Shown piece after piece: positions 1 through 10,729 of a stretch of 64,000 bases of DNA. A program made the position numbers and the translations under genes. The stretch lies in contig NZ_CP015249.1 of the NCBI RefSeq assembly GCF_001632775.1, forward strand, positions 2,274,686 through 2,338,685, given 5' to 3'. The DNA comes from Dokdonella koreensis DS-123. GTDB taxonomy: Bacteria > Pseudomonadota > Gammaproteobacteria > Xanthomonadales > Rhodanobacteraceae. Position 1 is the stretch's first letter. Each line of letters opens with the position of its first letter. The notes below the pieces were generated by a model. The model saw nothing but the letters and a program-made list of their open reading frames with translations, was not told where the DNA came from and did no database searches.

Positions 1-1328
1 TCGGCGAGGCGGCCGAGGATCGGCCGCGGCAGGCCGCGCAGCGCCTGCTCCAGCCGGCGCAGGCCGCCCTGCCCCTTCACCGCCCGCACACGGAAGCCGC
101 AGCTCGGCAGCTCGTCGACCGGCAAGGCGCCGCTGCCGATCTGGCTGCGCATCGGCGCGATGGCGAGCTCATAGCGGTCGCCGAGCGCCGACTGCAGGGC
201 CGGCAGCAGGCGCTGGGCCTGCTGCTCGATCGCCGCAGCCGGGCGCGTCAGGAGGCGCAAGGTCGGCAACCGCTCGGCCAGCCGCTCGGGCACGCGGTAC
301 AGGACCAGTACGGCTTCGAGCGCCGCCAGGGTCGCCTTGCCGGTACGCAGCGCGCGCTTGAGCGGATTCTTCTTGAGGCGCGCGACCAGCTCCCGCCGGC
401 CGGCGACGATCCCGGCCTGCGGTCCGCCGAGCAGCTTGTCGCCGCTGAACGCGACGAGGTCCGCGCCGGCGCCGAGTACCTCGCGCGCAGTCGGCTCCTT
501 CGGCAGGCCCCAGCGCGACAGGTCGACCAGGCTGCCGCTGCCGAGGTCGACGGCGAGCGGCAGCGCATGCGCATGTGCGATCGCGGCCAGTTCCTTCTCC
601 TGCACGCTCGCGGTGAAGCCGCTGATCGCGTAGTTGCTGGCATGCACCTTCATCAGCAATGCGGTCCGCGCGCCGATCGCGCCGGCGTAGTCGTGCGCGT
701 GGGTCCGGTTGGTCGTGCCGACCTCGACCAGCCGGGCGCCGGCGCTGCGCATCACGTCGGGAATGCGGAAGGCGCCGCCGATCTCGACCAGCTCGCCGCG
801 CGAGACGACCACCTCGCGCCGGTTGGCCAGCGTGTTGAGCAGCAGCAGCACCGCCGCGGCATTGTTGTTGACGACGGTGGCCGCTTCCGCGCCGGTGAGC
901 TCGCAGACCAGCGCCTCGACGACGTCGTCGCGGTCACCGCGGCCGCCGGTCGCGAGGTCGAACTCCAGGTTCACGGGCGCCGCGAGCGCGCGCGCAACGG
1001 CGTCGATCGCCACGTCGGGCAACGGCGCCCGTCCCAGGTTGGTATGGAGCACCGTGCCGGTCAGGTTGAAGACGGCGCGCAGGCGCGGCCGCGCCGCGGC
1101 CGCCAGCCGTTCCTCGACCGGCACGGCGATCGCCGCCGTCCCGGCGGCCTCGCGATCGAGCGCACCGGCGAGCGCGCGGGCGCGCAGGTGATCCAGTTCC
1201 GCACGCGCCGCCACCACCACCGGCGTGCGCCCATGCTGGGCGATCAGCGCGACGAAACGCGCCGTGTTCAGCAGCCGGTCGAGCGAAGGCAGGTCGCTGG
1301 CGACGGCCCGGGTCGCTCCGGCGTCCAT
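1..1328 (-). CDS. selA: L-seryl-tRNA(Sec) selenium transferase SelA (C-terminus beyond left edge)
   Basis: PLP enzyme that converts Ser-tRNA(Sec) to Sec-tRNA(Sec) using selenophosphate, in the cytoplasm. About 442 codons are open from the ATG at 1328 to the window edge with no stop; the family is about 460 residues, so only a short C-terminal piece is missing. Visible landmarks are the early [15 protein letters not shown] segment near residues 87-101, a [14 protein letters not shown] stretch near 152-165, and the PLP-lysine motif [14 protein letters not shown] with Lys298. It is the last visible gene of the fdnG-fdnH-fdnI-fdhE-selA unit and starts only 6 bases after the fdhE stop, which fits co-expression with the selenoprotein FdnG. 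selB would be expected beyond the left edge, but that is inference. Confidence 0.95.
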
Positions 1329-1334
1329 CGGCCG

Positions 1335-2297
1335 TCAGGCGTCCGGCTGCCAGAGCAGCGGATTGCCGCTCGCGCGCGCATAGCCCTGCTCGGCCAGCAA
1401 CAGGTCGAGTGCGAGCGTCGCCAGGTCGTCCGCTACCGGGTCGACGTCGGGATCGGCTTCCTGATAGAGGATCTTGCGATAGCCATGACAGCGATCGCAG
1501 GTCTCGGCCCGCACCGCGGTGCCCTGCCCGTGCGCCGCGTCGTCGCCGGCCATGCCGTCGTCGCGGACGAGGGAGCGGTATGCGATGTCCTTGCCGGCAG
1601 CGCCGCAGCGGCTGCACTGCACGCGCACCAGGTGCCACTCGCAGGCGCACAGCGGGCAATGCAGGTAGCGATAGCCGCGGTAGGCCGACTGCGCGCGCAC
1701 GACACTGGCGACCGGCGTGCTGCCGCAGACCGGGCACAGGCCCGGAACGTCCAGCGGCGCGACATCGTCCGCCGCCAGACGGCTCGACATGGCGACCCAG
1801 TGCACCTGCAGCGCCGCCATGAGGAACGGCGCAGCGGCGGCGTCGATCGCGCCGTCGGTCGCGCCCAGCAGGGCATCGGCCTGCGCCTCGACCCAGGCAG
1901 CGGGTGCGCGGCCGACACGGCCGGCCAGCCGCTCCACCTCCGCCGGAAATCCGGACCGGGCGGCCACCGCATCGCCGATCGAGGCCAGCGTCGCGCGCCA
2001 GTGCGCCGACCGCGGCCAGCCGACCGCCGGCACCGGTGGCATGTGATGGCCGCGCGCGACGTCCCGCTGCGCGGGCGTCGGCAACGGGACGTCGACGCCG
2101 GCGAGCGCCGCATGCTGGGCATCGGCCACGACGGCCAGCAGGCGCAGGTAGTCACCGATCGGTGCGGCTTCGGCCAGTTCGCGCAGGCGCGAGGCCCGGC
2201 GCACGAACAGGTCGGTCCGGTCCGGCAGGCGGACGCGCGGAATCGATCGCTGTGCGAGCGTCTCGATCTGACCGGGCTCGAGGATGCGCTGGGCCAT
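1335..2297 (-). CDS. fdhE: Formate dehydrogenase accessory protein FdhE
   Basis: 320-residue cytoplasmic rubredoxin-like protein needed to make respiratory formate dehydrogenase active; it binds iron and acts on the catalytic subunit before Tat export. The C-terminal half carries four CxxC-type pairs (CPVCGS, CPLCAC, CSRCGA, CDRCHG), the known FdhE signature. The N-terminal half is helical and ends with ALQVHWVAMSSRL before the metal-binding part. It follows fdnI in the operon (75-base gap) and precedes selA by 6 bases. The start ATG at 2297 gives a length close to E. coli FdhE (309). Confidence 0.93.
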   Translation of the reverse strand: MAQRILEPGQIETLAQRSIPRVRLPDRTDLFVRRASRLRELAEAAPIGDYLRLLAVVADAQHAALAGVDVPLPTPAQRDVARGHHMPPVPAVGWPRSAHWRATLASIGDAVAARSGFPAEVERLAGRVGRAPAAWVEAQADALLGATDGAIDAAAAPFLMAALQVHWVAMSSRLAADDVAPLDVPGLCPVCGSTPVASVVRAQSAYRGYRYLHCPLCACEWHLVRVQCSRCGAAGKDIAYRSLVRDDGMAGDDAAHGQGTAVRAETCDRCHGYRKILYQEADPDVDPVADDLATLALDLLLAEQGYARASGNPLLWQPDA

Positions 2298-2372: not shown

Positions 2373-3017
2373 CTACTCGCGTTCGCCGCCGCGCATGACC
2401 TGGCGGAACCAGGCGCGGTGGTGCTTCCAGGCCCAGCCGCGGCTGACCGTGCCGCGTGTCATAGCACGCATCGAGCCCTTGACCCAGATCGCGGCGTAGA
2501 TGTGCACCACGATCGCGCAGATCAGCACCGTCGCACAGAAGGCGTGCAGCAGCGAAGCGAACCGGATCACGTCCACCGGGAAGTAGAACGCGAAGTAGGC
2601 GCGCCACATCACGATGCCGGACAGCAGCAGGCCGGCCAGGCAAAGCACGATGAGGTGGAACAGCAGCTTCTGCCCGGCGTTGTAGCGGCCGACCTCCGGA
2701 AGACGGTCCTCCCGGTTGCCGACGACGTCCCTGGCCCGGCGCAGCCAGGCCCAGTCGCGCGCCTCCAGGTGGTTGTAGCGCCACAGCGTCGCGCCGAGAA
2801 CGACGAACGCGAGCACCATGACCAGGCCGATGAACGGGTGCAGGATGCGCGTCCACGGTCCGCCGCCGAACAGCGCGCTCAGCCAGAACAGCGACGGATG
2901 GAACAGCGCCAGGCCCGACAGCGCGAGCAGGACGAAACTGATCGCGACCAGCCAGTGATTGATGCGCATCGCCGGCGCGTAGCGGACGATGTCCTCGTTC
3001 TTGCGCTCGGCGCTCAT
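2373..3017 (-). CDS. fdnI: Formate dehydrogenase-N gamma subunit, cytochrome b556 (FdnI)
   Basis: 214-residue inner-membrane diheme cytochrome b that takes electrons from FdnH and reduces quinone. Four hydrophobic helices can be seen, at about 22-42, 55-77, 120-140 and 155-178. Likely heme histidines are in [23 protein letters not shown] and VVHIYAAIW. Its ATG overlaps the fdnH stop in an ATGA, showing translational coupling. A longer reading frame runs upstream through fdnH but is an artefact. Family length is about 217 residues, so the gene is complete. Confidence 0.94.
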
Positions 3018-3916
3018 GGCGTCTTCTCCAGCTCGCGGCGCGCGGCCTCCTCGTCGTGCTCGTCGGTCTCGTTCGGGCCGATGCCGATGTAGTGCAGGAA
3101 GCCGGCGGCGGCGGTGGCGAGGATCGCGAGCAGGCCGAGCGGCTTGGCCATGCCCTTCCACAGCCCCACCATCGCGCTGATCCGCGGCTGCTCCGGCAGT
3201 CCGCTGTAGAGCTGCGGCTGGTCGGCGTGGTGCAGCACGTACATCACGTGCGTGCCGCCGACGCCGGCCGGATCGTAGAGGCCGGCCTGCTCGAATCCGC
3301 GCGACTTGAGGTCCTCGATGCGTTCGGCGGCATGCTGGTGCATGTCCTCCTTGGTGCCGAACACGATCGCGCCGGTCGGGCAGGTCTTCACGCAGGCCGG
3401 CTCCAGGCCGACGGCGACGCGGTCCGAGCACAGCGTGCACTTGTAGGCCTTCTTGTCCTGCTTGGAGATGCGCGGCACGTCGAACGGGCAGCCGGTCACG
3501 CAGTAGCCGCAGCCGATGCAGTTCTCCTCGTGGAAATCGACGATGCCGTTGGCGTACTGGACGATCGCGCCCGGCGAGGGACAGGCCTTCAGGCAGCCCG
3601 GATCGGCGCAGTGCATGCAGCCGTCCTTGCGGATCAGCCATTCCAGGTCGCCCTTCGGGTTCTCGTACTCGGCGAACCGCATCAGCGTCCAGGAATGCGC
3701 GCTGAGGTCGGCGGGATTGTCGTAGTGCCCGGTGCAGCTGCCGACCTCGTCGCGCAGGTCGTTCCATTCCATGCAGGCGACCTGGCAGGCCTTGCAGCCG
3801 ATGCACTTGCTGACGTCGATCAGCTTGGCGACCTGCCCGGTATGGGCGCCGCGCACCTGCGGCTCGGGCAGGGTCGTCGCCGAGCGACGCACGATATCCA
3901 GCGATTGCAGTGCCAT
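3014..3916 (-). CDS. fdnH: Formate dehydrogenase-N iron-sulfur beta subunit (FdnH)
   Basis: 300-residue electron-transfer subunit carrying four [4Fe-4S] clusters between FdnG and FdnI on the periplasmic side. Cysteine motifs in order are [35 protein letters not shown] and CTLCSDRV...CVKTC. A single C-terminal anchor helix (about 258-280, [20 protein letters not shown]) ends in an acidic tail. There is no signal peptide; the family is exported with FdnG by the Tat route. It lies 8 bases after fdnG and overlaps fdnI by 4 bases. Confidence 0.95.
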
Positions 3917-3924
3917 GCTGCCTC

Positions 3925-6900
3925 CTACACCTTCTCGACCCGGACCAGGAAGGACTTGAACTCCGGCGTCTGCGTGTTCGCGTCACCGACGAACGGCGTC
4001 AAGGTGTTGGCGAGGAAGCCCGGCTTGGCCACGCCGAGGAATCCCCAGTGGATCGGTATGCCGACCGTGTGCACGACCTTGCCCTCGATCGTCAGCGGCT
4101 TGATGCGCTTGGTCACCATCGCCACCGCCTCGATGTGGCCGCGGTTGGAGACCACCCTGACCCGGCTGCCGTTGCCGATGCCCAGTGCGTCGGCCAGCGC
4201 GGCGCCGATCTCCACGAACTGCTCCGGCTGGACGATGGCGTTCAGGCGCACGTGCTTGGTCCAGTAGTGGAAATGCTCGGTGAGCCGGTAGGTGGTCGCC
4301 ACGTGCGGGAACTGGTCCGCCTTGCCGAAGGCGGCCAGGTCGTCGGCGAACACGCGCGCGGCCGGGTTGTTCAGGGCCTGGGCCTGTCCCGGGTTGAGCG
4401 GGTTGGCCGCCAGCGGCGTCTCGAACGGTTCGTAGTGCTCGGGGAACGGCCCTTCGGCCATGCCGGCGCGGGCGAAGAAGCGCGCCACGCCCTCGGGATT
4501 CATGATGAACGGCCCCATGCCGCCGGCCGGGTTCTCGCCGGCGACGAAATCGGGCACGTCGGCGCCGCCCCAGGCGCTGCCGTTCCAGGCGACCAGCGCA
4601 CGCTGCGGATTGAACGGCTTGCCGCTGGGATCGCAGGAGGCGCGGTTGTAGAGCACGCGCCGGTTCGCCGGCCAGGCCCAGGCCCAGTTCAGGGTCTGGC
4701 CGATGCCGGTCGGATCGGCGTTGTCGCGGCGCGCCATCAGGTTGCCGGTCGGCCCCCAGGCGCCGCAGAAGATCCAGCAGCCGCTCGCCGTGCTGCCGTC
4801 GTCGCGCAGCTCGGCGAAGCCGGCGAGCTGTTCACCGGCCTTGCGCATGACCTTGGTCGGGTCCTTCGGATCGGCAAGGTCCTTCAAGGCGCCGCCGGAA
4901 TATTCGCGCGCGAGTTCTTCCGGCGCGGGACTGTGCGGCTGCGCGTACTTCCAGGTCAGGTTGACGATCGGGTCGGCGAACGCGCCGCCGTCCTTGCGGT
5001 ACAGCGCGCGCAGGCGCAGGAACAGGCCGGCCATGATCTCCAGGTCGCTGCGCGCCTCGCCCGGCGGTTCGGCACCTTTCCAGTGCCATTGCAGCCAGCG
5101 CGAGGAATTGGTCAGCGAGCCGTTCTCCTCGGCGAAGCAGGTCGTCGGCAGGCGGAACACCTCGGTCTGGATCGCCGACGCGTCGACGTCGTTGAGCGCG
5201 CCGTGGTTCTTCCAGAACTCGCTGGTCTCCGTGGCGAGCGGATCCATGATCACCAGGTACTTGAGCCGCGAGAACGCCTCGGTCAGCTTGGCCTTGTTCG
5301 GCGCGGCGGCGAGCGGATTGAAGCCCTGGCACAGATAGCCGTTCATCTTGCCCTGGCGCATCAGCTCGTAGGCCTGCAGCATGTCGTAGGGCTTGTCGAG
5401 CTTGGGCAGGTAGTCGAACGCCCAGCGGTTGTCCGCCGTCGCCGCATCGCCCCACCAGGCCTTCATGAAGCTCACGAAGAACTTGCGGTAGTTCTGCCAG
5501 TAGCTGAGCTGGTTCGGCCGCAGCGGCTTGGGCGCGCGCGCGACGATGTAGGCCTCGAAATCCTGTTCCTTCTCGTTCGGCAGCGTCATGTAGCCGGGCA
5601 GCAGGTTGGACATCAGGCCCAGGTCGGTCAGCCCCTGGATGTTCGAATGCCCGCGCAGCGCGTTCATGCCACCACCGGCCACGCCGATGTTGCCGAGCAG
5701 CAGCTGCACCATCGCGCCGGTGCGGATCATCTGCGAGCCGATCGAATGCTGGGTCCAGCCGAGCGCGTACATGATCGTCATCGCGCGCGTCGGCGTCGCC
5801 GTCGAGGCGATCATGTCCCAGATCTGCAGCACCTTGTCCTTCGGCGTGCCGCAGACGCGCTCGACCATCTCCGGCGTGTAGCGTGCATAGTGCTGCTTGA
5901 GCAGGTTGTAGACGCAGCGCGGATCCGTCAGCGTCGGGTCGGTGCGGACGTAGCCGTCCTCGCCGAGCGCGTAGTCCCAGCTCGACTTGTCGTAGCTGCG
6001 CTTGGCCGCGTCGTAGCCCGAGTAGAGGCCGTCGGCGAACGCGAACGCGTCCTTCACGATGAAGGACAGGTCGGTGTAGTTGACGACGTACTCGCGCTGG
6101 ATCGTGTCGTTCGCCAGCAGGTAGTTGATCAGCCCGCCGAGGAAGACGATGTCGGTACCGGTGCGGATCGGTGCGTAGACGTCGGCCACCGAGGCCGAGC
6201 GCGTGAAGCGCGGATCGACGACGATCAGCCGGGCCTTGTTGTGCGCCTTGGCCTCGGTGACCCACTTGAAGCCGCACGGATGCGCTTCGGCGGCATTGCC
6301 ACCCATGATGAGGATCAGGTCGGCATTCTTGATGTCGACCCAGTGATTCGTCATCGCTCCACGGCCAAACGTCGGGGCAAGACCTGCCACCGTCGGGCCG
6401 TGTCAGACACGTGCCTGGTTGTCGAACGCCAGAAGTCCGAGGGAACGGGCCACCTTGTGGGTCAGATAGCCGACTTCGTTGCTCGACGCCGAGGCGGCGA
6501 GCATGCCGGTGGTGAGCCAGCGGTTCACGGTGAGGCCGTCGGCGTTCGTCGCCGTGAAGTTCGCGTCGCGGTCGGCCTTCATCAGGCCGGTGATGCGGTC
6601 GAGCGCCTCGTCCCAGGAGATGCGCTGCCACGTGTCCGAGCCCGGCGCGCGGTACTCGGGATGCTTGAGGCGGCTCTCGCTGTGGATGAAGTCGACCAGG
6701 GCCGCACCCTTCGGGCACAGCGTGCCGCGATTGACCGGGTGGTCCGGGTCGCCTTCGATGTGGAAGATGCTCGCCCGCGCGTTCTTGGCGCCGTCGCCGA
6801 GGCCGTACATCAGCACGCCGCAGGCCACCGAGCAGTAGGGACAGGTGTTACGGGTCTCGGTCGCGCGCGCCAGCTTGAACTGGCGCACCTCCGCGAGCGC

Positions 6901-6993
6901 AGGCCCGGGCGAAAAGCCCATGAGCGCCAGGCTCGAACCCACCAGGGTGGTCCCGGTGATCTTCAAGAACTGGCGTCGAGTCACAGCAGACAT
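3925..6993 (-). CDS. fdnG: Formate dehydrogenase-N alpha subunit, selenocysteine-containing (FdnG)
   Basis: Periplasmic molybdenum bis-MGD formate dehydrogenase, the catalytic subunit of FdnGHI. Read through an in-frame UGA at 6405-6403 as Sec197, it is 1022 residues, against 1015 with Sec196 in E. coli FdnG. The residues around the UGA ([20 protein letters not shown]) match the family active site. The N-terminus is a Tat signal (TRRQFLK plus a hydrophobic stretch ending at ALAEV). A [4Fe-4S] motif [14 protein letters not shown] and [11 protein letters not shown] follow. The start ATG at 6993 has an AGGAGA ribosome site; upstream codons in the same frame lack one. First gene of the fdnGHI-fdhE-selA unit. 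A naive gene call would split it into two pseudogene-like halves (3925-6390 and 6403-6993). Confidence 0.96.
6360..6405 (-). promoter_or_regulatory. bSECIS element directing UGA recoding in fdnG
   Basis: Immediately 3' of the UGA on the minus strand, a lower stem CACGGCC (6402-6396) pairs perfectly with GGCCGTG (6366-6360). The apical part reads GG-U-GGCA-GGUCU-UGCC-CC: a short helix with one bulged U and a GGUCU loop, the two features SelB recognises in the E. coli fdhF and fdnG elements. The placement, bulge and loop all agree with the bacterial type, so function is inferred with high confidence. Confidence 0.93.
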
Positions 6994-7101
6994 GACGTTC
7001 TCCTCGATCGCTTGTCGCGAAACCGGCCTCGCGAATGATCGCTCGGGCAGGCTCGCCGCACTGGCCTCGGATACACACCATCGACGGCATGAAACGGCCC
7101 G

Positions 7102-7107
7102 AGTATA
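7102..7107 (-). promoter_or_regulatory. Possible -10 element upstream of fdnG
   Basis: On the minus strand TATACT lies about 110 bases upstream of the fdnG ATG. It is a good -10 match, but the bases 17 upstream (GGTGGC) are a poor -35, so an activator-dependent promoter or chance are both possible. I looked for and did not find a clear FNR-type site beside it. Confidence 0.3.
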
Positions 7108-7153
7108 GAACAAATCCGCAGCGCCACCGCCCGCACGCGGCGCCTGCGGAGCC

Positions 7154-7189
7154 AGGGTCGCCGCCGCCTCGCGCGGCGGCGGCGACCCT
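7154..7189. terminator. Strong 15-bp GC hairpin between the copper-like cluster and fdnG
   Basis: AGGGTCGCCGCCGCC (7154-7168) and its exact reverse complement (7175-7189) flank a 6-base loop. It lies downstream of the DUF411 gene (minus strand) and upstream of the fdnG promoter region. There is no T-run, so it could be an intrinsic-like terminator, an mRNA 3'-end stabiliser or an insulator between the two units. Confidence 0.55.
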
Positions 7190-7326
7190 CGCGACCGGAC
7201 CTGCGGCCGGGCGCGGAGACCCCCGCCTGCGGGATGCTCCGCGCCTGGCTGCGGGTCCCGGCTACGGACACCCCGATGCCGGCGGCGCCGGGGTCCGCAG
7301 CGTTCGGCGCCGACCGGGCCGGGCGT

Positions 7327-7833
7327 TCAGTGCCGGGCGTACGGCGAGACCGTCCCGTCCCGGCCGACCAGTTCCACCGTGTAGCGCTGCACGGTGCCAT
7401 CGGCCGTCTCCATGCCGGGCGAACCCAGCGGCATGCCCGGCAGCACCAGGCCGCGTGCATCGGGGCGGTCGGCCAGCAGGCGCTGGATGTCGGCGGCCGG
7501 TACATGGCCCTCGACGTAGTAGCCCGCCACTTCCGCGGTGTGGCACGAGCCCTTGCCGAACGGGATGCCCAGGCTCCGCTTCAGTGGTTCCAGGTCGTCC
7601 GATTCACGGACGTCGACAGGAAACCCCGCCGCGCGAAGGTGATCGACCCACAGCGTGCAACAGCCGCAGGTCGGGCTCTTGTGGACCACGACCAGCGGCA
7701 GGCTGGCCGGCACGGTGGACCGGTGCGCCGCCGGCGCCTCGGCCGCCGACGCGGCGGGTGACTGGGACGACACCGGGCCGGCCGCCAGTGCGGCGGCGAG
7801 AAGGACCGTCAGGCCGTAGAGATTCGAATGCAT
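7327..7833 (-). CDS. DUF411 family secreted metal-binding protein
   Basis: 168-residue protein with an N-terminal signal peptide (MHSNLYGLTVLLAAALAAG). The mature domain has the DUF411 signature: VVHKSPTCGCCTLWVDHLRAAGF with a CxCC pair, then GKGSCHTAEVAGYYVEGHVPA and RGLVLPGMPLGSPGME. Family members are found in copper and silver resistance loci and are thought to bind metal in the periplasm; the function here is inferred. The ATG at 7833 is preceded by GAGGAG at good spacing, which favours it over an upstream TTG. Last gene of the copL-to-DUF411 unit, 11 bases after the SnoaL-like gene. Confidence 0.85.
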   Translation of the reverse strand: MHSNLYGLTVLLAAALAAGPVSSQSPAASAAEAPAAHRSTVPASLPLVVVHKSPTCGCCTLWVDHLRAAGFPVDVRESDDLEPLKRSLGIPFGKGSCHTAEVAGYYVEGHVPAADIQRLLADRPDARGLVLPGMPLGSPGMETADGTVQRYTVELVGRDGTVSPYARH

Positions 7834-7844
7834 GGGGGAACTCC

Positions 7845-8354
7845 TCAAGGGGTTTTCTTCGGTCGCGACGACCAGTGGATGTGAACGATGCGCCAGCCCT
7901 GCGGGCCGCGCTTGAGCAGCATCGTTTCAGTACTCGACACGGCGCGCGGCTGGCCGTCCTTCCGGAAACGGATCTCGCTCTCGCTGGCGACCCAGGCCAG
8001 ATCGCCTTCCGTGCGGGCGCGGCGGTGTTCCAGCCGTACCTGCGCGCCCTGCAGGAACGCCGCGTCACTGATGGCATGGTGCTGCAGGTACTGGGCCCGG
8101 TTTCGCTCGGCACCGCCGCTCTCCAGGATCAGGACGTCGGGGTCGAGCAAGGCCGCGATCGTGTCGTAGTCCGCCGCCGCCAGGGCGGTACCGAACCGAT
8201 CCACGATCGCAACGGCAGCCGCGGCGGCAACCGGGACATCCACCTGGGACGGGCCGGACGTCTGCGGTGATGCGTTTCCCGCGAGTGGTGACACCGCGGC
8301 AGCCGCCACGGCGATCGCGATTGCCAGCCGCGCTGCGGCCAGTGGTCGTTTCAT
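7845..8354 (-). CDS. Secreted SnoaL/DUF4440-like (NTF2 fold) protein
   Basis: 169 residues with a hydrophobic leader (MKRPLAAARLAIAIAVAAAAVSP...), so probably periplasmic. The body resembles the SnoaL/DUF4440 fold: IVDRFGTALAAADYDTIAALLDPDVLILESGG, then AWVASESEIRFR and the closing LLKRGPQGWRIVHIHWSSR. Such domains are enzymes or binding proteins; nothing here fixes a substrate. The ATG overlaps the stop of the upstream cytochrome gene (ATGA), so the two are translationally coupled and likely act in one pathway. Confidence 0.8.
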   Translation of the reverse strand: MKRPLAAARLAIAIAVAAAAVSPLAGNASPQTSGPSQVDVPVAAAAAVAIVDRFGTALAAADYDTIAALLDPDVLILESGGAERNRAQYLQHHAISDAAFLQGAQVRLEHRRARTEGDLAWVASESEIRFRKDGQPRAVSSTETMLLKRGPQGWRIVHIHWSSRPKKTP

Positions 8355-9061
8355 CGTTCGCCTCCGGTGGCGTCGTGGTGGGACGGATGCGCGGGCGCGC
8401 GCGTGCCTGGATCGGCACCGGCATCCGGCGCATCGTGGTGCGGCGGCGTGCCGGGCGGGTGCGCGTGCCCGGCGCTGCCCGGGTCGGGCCCGGCATCGCC
8501 CGCGGCCGGGTGCGCATGCGGCTTCGCGCCGGCACCGTGCGAGTGCCCTTCGCTGCGCTCGACCAGCGCCCGGTAGTGCGCGCGATCGAGCGTCGGCAAC
8601 ACCTGGAGCAAGGCGACCATGGCCCAGATGTACTCGTCCTCCATGCTCTTGCCCCAGGCCGGCATGCCCGACGCCTTGATGCCGTGCTTGATGACCCAGA
8701 ACGCCTGGGCCGGCGCGACCGTCACCTGTGTCAGGTCGGGCGGCGCCGGATACAGTCCCCGGCTCAACTCGGTCTCGCCGCTGCCGGGCGAGGCATGACA
8801 GCTCGCACACATCGCCTCGTAGTTGCCGGCGCCCTGTACCACCTTGGCCGGATCATCCAGGTCGGGCACCTCGATGCCTTCGGCATGCCGTGCGATCGAA
8901 TAGGTTCGCACTGCGTCCAGCAGCGCGTACACCGGACGGGTATGCGGCGCGTCGGCCGCCACGTTGTAGAGGCCGGCCCGGACGAAGCCGGCGATCGCCA
9001 GCAGGCCGAGGCCGGTCCCGGCCGACAGCCAGACGAGAGCTCTGCTCATGAGGGGCGTCAT
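8351..9061 (-). CDS. Membrane-anchored monoheme cytochrome c with His-rich tail
   Basis: 236 residues. An N-terminal hydrophobic helix (about 6-25) anchors or exports the protein. The heme site is CASCH, with the likely distal Met in KASGMPAWGKSM, as in small electron-carrier cytochromes. The last ~70 residues are low-complexity and rich in His, Ala, Pro and Gly (SEGHSHGAGAKPHAHP, AHPSHHDATGG), typical of metal-binding tails. The ATG at 9061 is chosen over one 15 bases upstream because GGAGG sits 6 bases before it and because the preceding mini-ORF overlaps it as ATGA. Its neighbours (CopL-like, DUF411) suggest a periplasmic metal or redox role. Confidence 0.85.
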   Translation of the reverse strand: MTPLMSRALVWLSAGTGLGLLAIAGFVRAGLYNVAADAPHTRPVYALLDAVRTYSIARHAEGIEVPDLDDPAKVVQGAGNYEAMCASCHASPGSGETELSRGLYPAPPDLTQVTVAPAQAFWVIKHGIKASGMPAWGKSMEDEYIWAMVALLQVLPTLDRAHYRALVERSEGHSHGAGAKPHAHPAAGDAGPDPGSAGHAHPPGTPPHHDAPDAGADPGTRAPAHPSHHDATGGER

Positions 9062-9159
9062 GACGAACCTCCGCATCGGGATTCGTCAGGAAACAGCGAG
9101 CCGCGCCACCGGGGGCTCGGCCACGGATCGGCGCACGCGCCGAAGGTTGCGATGGACAT
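9058..9159 (-). CDS. Candidate 33-residue mini-ORF coupled to the cytochrome gene
   Basis: ATG at 9159 preceded by GGAG at 5-base spacing; 33 codons containing two cysteines (residues 9 and 29) and two tryptophans; stop overlaps the cytochrome ATG as ATGA. No family is recognised. The good ribosome site and exact overlap with the next gene suggest it is translated, possibly as a leader or coupling peptide. It is short enough to arise by chance in GC-rich DNA. Confidence 0.45.
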   Translation of the reverse strand: MSIATFGACADPWPSPRWRGSLFPDESRCGGSS

Positions 9160-10015: not shown

Positions 10016-10729
10016 ATGCTCGACATGTCTCCCGAAGCTCCCTTCATGCCGACCGTCCAGACCGGCTCCGACGCCCATCGTCCCACCATGAGCACGCCCG
10101 CTCCCGACGTGGATGTCCCGGCCGAGGCCGGCTGGCGAACGCTGCGCCGGGGCCGCTGCTTCGTCTACGTGCTGCCTTGCCGCGAGTCGGACGTGCTCAA
10201 GGTCGGCTTCTCGCGTGACCCGCTGGTCCGCCTGCAATCGCTGCATGCGCGCTATTTCGAGGTGTTCGACCTGGACCGCGCGCTCCTGGCGGAAACCGAC
10301 TACGTGCGCGACGCGCGGCGGATCGAGCTGCGATTGAAGCAAGCCCTGTCCGGCGAGGCCACGCCGCCGCCGCTGGTCGTTCGCGAAGCGGCGGGCGGAC
10401 GCACCGAATGGTTCCGCGGCGCATGGCCGCGCGCCGCGGCACTGCTGGAAGGCATCTGCGACGAAGACGGCCACCTGCTGCACCCGCAGCTTTCCGCCTG
10501 GCTGCGCGTACGCTGGTTCCGCGACGCGACGCTCTACGAGTGGTCGCAGCAGGCCTTGCAGCAGCTGGAATTGGCGACGTTCAACGGCGCCCCGGACCTC
10601 GCCCGGAAGCTGCAGCGCGTGCTCAAGAATACGCTCGACGCCTGCCACGCGGTCGGCCTGCGCCTGGAGGGCAAGGTACCGGGCGCGGTCGTGCACTGGT
10701 ACCGCGGCGGCGCCGGCGAAGTCGGCTGA
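10016..10729 (+). CDS. GIY-YIG-like (T5orf172-type) domain protein
   Basis: 237 residues, start chosen at the ATG with AGGAGA 6 bases upstream (an in-frame ATG at 9938 has no such site). The core CFVYVLPCRESDVLKVGFSR followed by DPLVRLQSLHARYFEVFDLD and ETDYVRDARRIELRLKQAL resembles the GIY-YIG fold of the T5orf172 kind: VYV for GIY, KVG for YIG, then a conserved Arg and a later Glu. The C-terminal ~100 residues (from SAWLRVRWFRDATLYEW) are helical and unassigned. Whether it is an active nuclease cannot be told from sequence. It stands alone, convergent with nadD. Confidence 0.65.
   Translation: MLDMSPEAPFMPTVQTGSDAHRPTMSTPAPDVDVPAEAGWRTLRRGRCFVYVLPCRESDVLKVGFSRDPLVRLQSLHARYFEVFDLDRALLAETDYVRDARRIELRLKQALSGEATPPPLVVREAAGGRTEWFRGAWPRAAALLEGICDEDGHLLHPQLSAWLRVRWFRDATLYEWSQQALQQLELATFNGAPDLARKLQRVLKNTLDACHAVGLRLEGKVPGAVVHWYRGGAGEVG

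Follow-up and report, generated by a model that had tools for sequence, protein, structure and literature searches.

A selenocysteine-decoding gene block with a predicted formate dehydrogenase selenoprotein in Dokdonella koreensis, and two block lineages in Rhodanobacteraceae

Results

Organization of the gene row

The locus analyzed here begins within the first 7 kb of a 64,000-nt stretch of the Dokdonella koreensis DS-123 genome (hereafter, the window) and extends beyond its start. It consists of the genes fdnG-fdnH-fdnI-fdhE-selA-selB-selC-selD, which follow each other on one strand and span 10,351 bp from the start of fdnG to the end of selD (Table 1). For selB, selC and selD, all located just outside the window, a single match over the cut-off was detected in the genome, which is one 4.45 Mb contig, and the complete bacterial Sec-decoding set (selA, selB, selC and selD) is present. 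The first-pass annotation of this DNA had grouped fdhE, selA and a SECIS-bearing selenoprotein gene as a single unit and had proposed searching the genome for the remaining machinery. The same-strand row was recovered, and the three additional genes all adjoin its selA end, ruling out an orphan UGA without decoding machinery. We found no match to the selenouridine gene ybbB in this genome; in the controls, 7 of 14 genomes produced a match, one of them over the cut-off.

Table 1. Features of the selenocysteine block, numbered by window position unless the contig is named
Feature	Coordinates	Strand	Basis
fdnG, catalytic alpha subunit of a membrane-bound formate dehydrogenase (N/O type), selenoprotein	3925..6993	-	ORF reading and TIGR01553
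In-frame UGA (Sec197)	6403..6405	-	Alignment with X196 of 1KQF; TGA in relatives
Bacterial SECIS (Rfam RF01989, SECIS_3), UGA included	6350..6408	-	Covariance model, fold, pairing across relatives
fdnH, iron-sulfur beta subunit	3014..3916	-	TIGR01582, 468.8 bits
fdnI, cytochrome b gamma subunit	2373..3017	-	TIGR01583, 178.7 bits; 4-nt overlap with fdnH
fdhE, formate dehydrogenase accessory protein	1335..2297	-	TIGR01562, 270.4 bits
selA (470 aa)	1..1328, 85 bases more past window start	-	4-nt overlap with selB
selB	contig 2272682-2274604, outside window	-	421 bits
selC, tRNA-Sec, anticodon TCA	contig 2272550-2272641, outside window	-	76.9 bits
selD	contig 2271328-2272383, outside window	-	424.7 bits

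The junctions within the row comprise gaps of 8 nt (fdnG/fdnH), 75 nt (fdnI/fdhE), 6 nt (fdhE/selA), 40 nt (selB/selC) and 166 nt (selC/selD), and 4-nt overlaps at fdnH/fdnI and selA/selB. Judging from this spacing, the row is probably co-transcribed as one operon, and the 166-nt gap preceding selD could hold a promoter.

Upstream of fdnG, no sigma-70-like promoter was matched at 6980-7400, in a type of scan that is weak in DNA this G+C-rich, and the gap contains a terminator-like site on the minus strand (7130-7118). FNR-like sites, sought with a scan likewise weak in G+C-rich DNA, were absent from 6994-7326; in the window as a whole, 13 matches were obtained with two mismatches allowed, against a chance mean of 3.0, two of them inside fdnG. 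Farther upstream on the same strand (7327-9076) are genes for a DUF411 protein, a SnoaL-like protein and a cytochrome c with a cbb3-type domain.

An in-frame UGA at the active-site position of FdnG

The fdnG gene, for which the coordinates in the first-pass annotation were exact, reads on the minus strand (6993-3925) as 1022 residues with a single in-frame TGA, codon 197 (6405-6403). The product matches TIGR01553 over its full length with 1476.9 bits (cut-off 814.2), and among solved chains, the top score goes to chain A of the E. coli formate dehydrogenase FDH-N (1KQF), with which residues 4-1021 align. Residue 197 pairs with the letter X196 of this chain in the motif V-X-H-G-P-T-V; we take X196 to be selenocysteine, the Mo ligand, and with this assumption, the earlier placement of the UGA at the active-site position of the family agrees with the alignment. 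Thus, the window encodes a full-length homologue of the alpha subunit of E. coli FdnGHI with the special residue at the same place. In E. coli, the sel genes are not known to lie beside fdnGHI. The N terminus of FdnG carries what is presumably a Tat-type signal motif.

Across relatives, TGA occupied this site in 88 of the 88 rows that cover it (87 distinct loci; 101 loci examined), a set chosen by selB in which L030 and L102 are one place and L086 is an enzyme of 39% identity. Because these loci were picked by selB, a scan of the family Rhodanobacteraceae, with up to three candidates scored per genome, provides a less biased test. TIGR01553 exceeded its cut-off in 54 of the 233 family genomes, and each of these matches, three of which are partial (G020, G058 and G210), contained exactly one stop, TGA. 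Homologues with Cys or Trp at this position, the case that the first-pass annotation had named as evidence against its reading, were not encountered: among the matches listed, 0 of the 54 over the cut-off lacked the TGA. The weaker listed matches, below the cut-off, presumably represent either other enzymes of the molybdopterin type or the C-terminal parts of fdnG genes that are split (G020, G210, G058). A weak formate-dehydrogenase-like match (G197:C2:26086-26910; 143 bits, below the cut-off) has one TGA inside and comes from a genome without selB over the cut-off.

A bacterial SECIS element following the UGA

The Rfam model SECIS_3 matched the minus strand at 6408-6350 with 85.3 bits (E 7e-19; gathering score 63), the sole match in the 4.45 Mb genome; among 14 control genomes, E. 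coli alone matched. The minimum-energy fold contains the 7-bp apical stem, the bulged U and the GGUCU loop that had been described after the UGA from the sequence, so that both the drawn hairpin and the model search proposed as its check held up. The folding energy was ambiguous, with z -2.14 for a 56-nt stretch, equalled or bettered by 4 of 200 shuffles, and z -0.30 for a 39-nt stretch, equalled or bettered by 74 of 200. Folding energy by itself is weak evidence for a SECIS, and the covariance score together with the kept pairing is stronger. Over 44 distinct 59-nt rows, counted with L086 left out, the SECIS_3 pairs were formed in 661 of 704 cells, compared to 630 in the highest of 1000 shuffles. 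The apical stem was paired in 308 of 308 cells, one of its pairs being seen as A-U, C-G and G-C, and the outer pairs 8-48 and 15-42 were often broken across the 44 rows. Changes on both sides of a pair numbered 3 against a shuffle mean of 2.5, a measure that does not separate the SECIS from the shuffles.

Given that UGA is a stop codon in table 11, fdnG could, in principle, be a decayed gene that ends at a true stop. Against this reading, which we consider exceedingly improbable, stand the 1022 residues that continue with no break other than the one UGA and align with 1KQF almost from end to end, the identical codon at the identical place in all 88 rows, along with the one TGA in each of the 54 family matches, and the presence of a SECIS and the complete Sec machinery. 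We treat fdnG as a predicted selenoprotein gene.

Enzyme subtype

The first-pass annotation had specified the enzyme as FDH-N. The enzyme can be assigned to the N/O type of formate dehydrogenases, and its gamma subunit, FdnI, scores under the cut-offs of both subtype models: 203.2 bits with the FDH-N model NF007558 (cut-off 339) and 226 bits with NF007924 (cut-off 341), which we take to be the FDH-O type gamma model. That the enzyme is instead of the aerobic FDH-O type, not the nitrate-linked FDH-N, is quite possible, if somewhat short of an even chance. The higher of the two gamma scores, the gap upstream of fdnG without an FNR-like site, and the name fdoGHI given to the homologous alphaproteobacterial cluster in the sections of PMC8124441 considered here all point in this direction, but neither gamma score reaches its cut-off, and the solved chain that the alpha subunit matches best is E. 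coli FDH-N, although none of the 17 listed chains is named FDH-O.

Distribution of the layout and of the trait

We compared gene order in 100 distinct loci, namely, the best 80 of 191 confirmed SelB places, 20 family loci and the window's own, minus one duplicate (L102, the same place as L030), a sample biased to close SelB relatives. In 83 of the 100, fdnG-fdnH-fdnI-fdhE-selA-selB-selC occur in this order on one strand, and 26 of these 83 also carry selD downstream on the same strand, as in the row described here. The other 17 loci include eight that are short, ending before fdnG, three without a same-strand selC, and six missing at least one gene within reach. The sampled organisms include Stenotrophomonas, Lysobacter, Burkholderia, Caballeronia, Achromobacter, Pandoraea, Comamonas, Roseomonas, Mesorhizobium and Microvirga. 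The first-pass view that clustering of this kind is uncommon in such organisms finds no support here: this is the usual layout in the sampled gamma-, beta- and alphaproteobacterial selB loci, and related layouts are described in the sections considered here of PMC1794560, PMC5029168 and PMC8124441.

The patchy part is possession of the Sec trait, not the layout. SelB exceeded the cut-off in 52 of the 233 Rhodanobacteraceae genomes (2 of 10 in the genus Dokdonella), and these 52 all fall within the 54 with FdnG over the cut-off. The two additional genomes, G023 and G210, are drafts of about 320 contigs each that have fdnG with the TGA and selD over the cut-off, and no selB over the cut-off. G210 carries fdnG and selD on one contig, with a tRNA-Sec and fragments of selB in two frames next to selD; its block is therefore present but frame-broken. 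In G023 (L158), a genus-mate of D. koreensis, fdnGHI occupy a 6.4-kb contig and selD another, with no tRNA-Sec within 1.5 kb of selD; our guess is that the absence of selB here reflects a draft gap, the alternative being a loss in progress.

Two block lineages within one family

Within Rhodanobacteraceae, membership in which follows the codes of the genome collection, two types of the block could be distinguished. Type A, to which the D. koreensis block belongs, combines a same-strand selD with a SelB 58-70% identical to that of D. koreensis. In type B, represented by nine fetched loci, SelB identity to the D. koreensis protein is 44-46%, and 8 of the 9 loci have selD on the other strand. In the trees for SelB, SelA and FdnG, type A groups with Stenotrophomonas and Lysobacter (Xanthomonadaceae) and with Betaproteobacteria. 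Type B falls among Alphaproteobacteria in the SelB, SelA and SelD trees, and its FdnG forms a neighboring branch, placed between the alphaproteobacterial sequences and all others. The gene trees, thus, conflict with the organism grouping, and a single family clade was rejected by the AU test for SelB (p 2e-48), FdnG (1e-49) and SelA (1e-58), with the groups named after the identities had been seen. These were quick trees without bootstrap, built from 46 loci picked out of the 101 fetched. Rows were removed when a gene was missing or when coverage was at most 80% in one run and at most 75% in the other run and the AU tests, and the frameshifted fdnG of G020 was dropped, leaving 46 rows for selB, 46 for selA, 41 for fdnG, 44 for fdhE and 31 for selD.

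Rejection of a single clade implies that one or both of the block types present in the family were acquired from elsewhere, so that transfer of the block into or within Rhodanobacteraceae, as read from these trees, appears well supported. This conclusion applies at the family level, not to this species specifically. Hence, of the earlier suggestion that the block could have moved as a unit, the part that stands is the family-level one, and specific arrival in D. koreensis is not borne out.

For the D. koreensis lineage itself, vertical descent from a family ancestor, with loss in most relatives and no transfer into this lineage, has a probability that we place just under even. The nearest kin of the D. 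koreensis proteins in the FdnG, SelA and SelB trees are family type A members. In favor of descent, all 7 complete family A loci fetched from outside the genus have the identical order and strand, selD included (3 more end early); the genus-mate G020 has its block in the matching position, flanked by chaA and nadD-holA; and no odd base composition or compositional step is apparent, the block having a GC of 0.700 and the window 0.715. The rejection of one family clade for SelB, FdnG and SelA argues against descent throughout the family, again with groups that were named after seeing the identities. Within the block, GC is 0.67-0.68 for fdnGHI and 0.73-0.74 for fdhE-selA-selB.

Type A is not one clade in FdnG, the sequences of Stenotrophomonas, P. 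boreopolis, Lysobacter and Dokdonella sp. BIN16 branching inside. The BIN16 FdnG (L102, the same as L030; G036) is 87-88.5% identical to those of Stenotrophomonas and P. boreopolis and 81% to that of D. koreensis. The closest relatives of the BIN16 FdnH, FdnI, FdhE, SelA, SelB and SelD, among the ten rows compared, are family A rows. In BIN16, the client fdnG with its SECIS was apparently exchanged under the resident machinery, although this is a metagenome-assembled genome and could be chimeric.

Insertion site in genus-mates

G020 is the only genus-mate with selB over the cut-off. In that genome, fdnG and fdnH are each split over two frames (L101 10100-13163 and 9190-10085), by assembly error or decay. 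The chaA-like calcium/proton antiporter gene (L009 12221-13312), convergent with selD, occurs, among the 10 genus genomes, only in D. koreensis and G020, the two with selB over the cut-off, and may have come with the block as part of the same gained stretch. Comparison of 7 genus-mate stretches around holA/nadD revealed no clean empty site, and none of the 7 matches the block-side neighborhood of the window beyond nadD. Gene order beside nadD varies among genus-mates: 3 of 6 share with L148 one other order near nadD, and three do not. The M13 peptidase gene is a poor site marker owing to paralogues. Also beside nadD, at 10019-10729, is a gene for a T5orf172-domain protein (22.6 bits, cut-off 20), with a relative at the same place in G020.

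Discussion

The row in D. koreensis is almost certainly a self-sufficient cassette for selenocysteine decoding, with a single client known within the scope of a genome-wide hairpin search that used the SECIS_3 model alone. It belongs to the gamma/beta branch of the fdnGHI-fdhE-selABC(D) block, which is widespread and has moved between proteobacteria. Going by the known roles of these gene families, SelD would make selenophosphate, and SelA would turn Ser-tRNA(Sec), made on the selC tRNA, into Sec-tRNA(Sec). SelB would then carry Sec-tRNA(Sec) to the ribosome and bind the fdnG mRNA at the hairpin immediately downstream of UGA 197, whereupon this UGA would be decoded as Sec. With FdhE assisting maturation, FdnG, FdnH and FdnI would assemble into a membrane formate dehydrogenase, exported by the Tat route, with quinone as its electron acceptor.

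Blocks of this kind, including their horizontal transfer, are already in print, and that of D. koreensis is an ordinary member; a search of open-access PMC returned no paper linking Dokdonella with selenocysteine. The comparisons that follow apply to the sections of each paper considered here. PMC1794560 describes selA-selB-selC operons with a neighboring fdhA in Alpha-, Beta- and Pseudomonadales Gammaproteobacteria and argues for transfer together with the client gene; the D. koreensis row is like these in its core genes, its one selenoprotein client and the evidence of block transfer, but in Pseudomonadales, selD shares an operon with ybbB, whereas selD here is part of the row and ybbB was not found in the genome. 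According to PMC1273633, selD is rarely contiguous with a selA-selB operon. In PMC5029168, transfer donors and recipients, Pseudomonas to Marinobacter being an example, have selD and a formate dehydrogenase gene near the rest of the set or within one operon, and organisms without any other selenium trait are reported to have received more transfers. The D. koreensis block shares with these cases a selD that is part of the row, a single client in the form of a formate dehydrogenase and a patchy distribution, and differs in the lineages involved.

A further parallel, in gene content, in the proposed transfer and in the family Rhodanobacteraceae itself, is in PMC8124441, where an fdoGHI-selABCD cluster of Rhizobiales is thought to have moved between three classes and where an alpha-like SelB is noted in Dyella and Luteibacter (Rhodanobacteraceae), so that the alpha-like character of type B is already in print for these two genera. 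The D. koreensis block differs from this alpha-like type in that its SelB is 44-46% identical to those of the nine alpha-like family loci fetched, its selD is on the same strand, and its selB and selC are separated by 40 nt, whereas those of the alpha-like type overlap. Slightly more notable than the rest are the complete row with selD and the coexistence of two block lineages in one family.

Taken together, these observations suggest, tentatively and with a likelihood that approaches but does not reach even, a minimal and self-contained 10-kb module that combines expansion of the genetic code with a single client, of which the family holds two separately derived versions, and in which, in BIN16, fdnG alone was later swapped for a Stenotrophomonas-like copy. 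Because the module brings its own selD, it would need no selenium metabolism in the recipient. The locus is a clean case in which the machinery for UGA recoding and its only detected client are contained in one 10-kb stretch, and the presence or absence of the block over a single family (52 of 233 genomes with selB) provides a natural test bed for gain and loss of the 21st amino acid.
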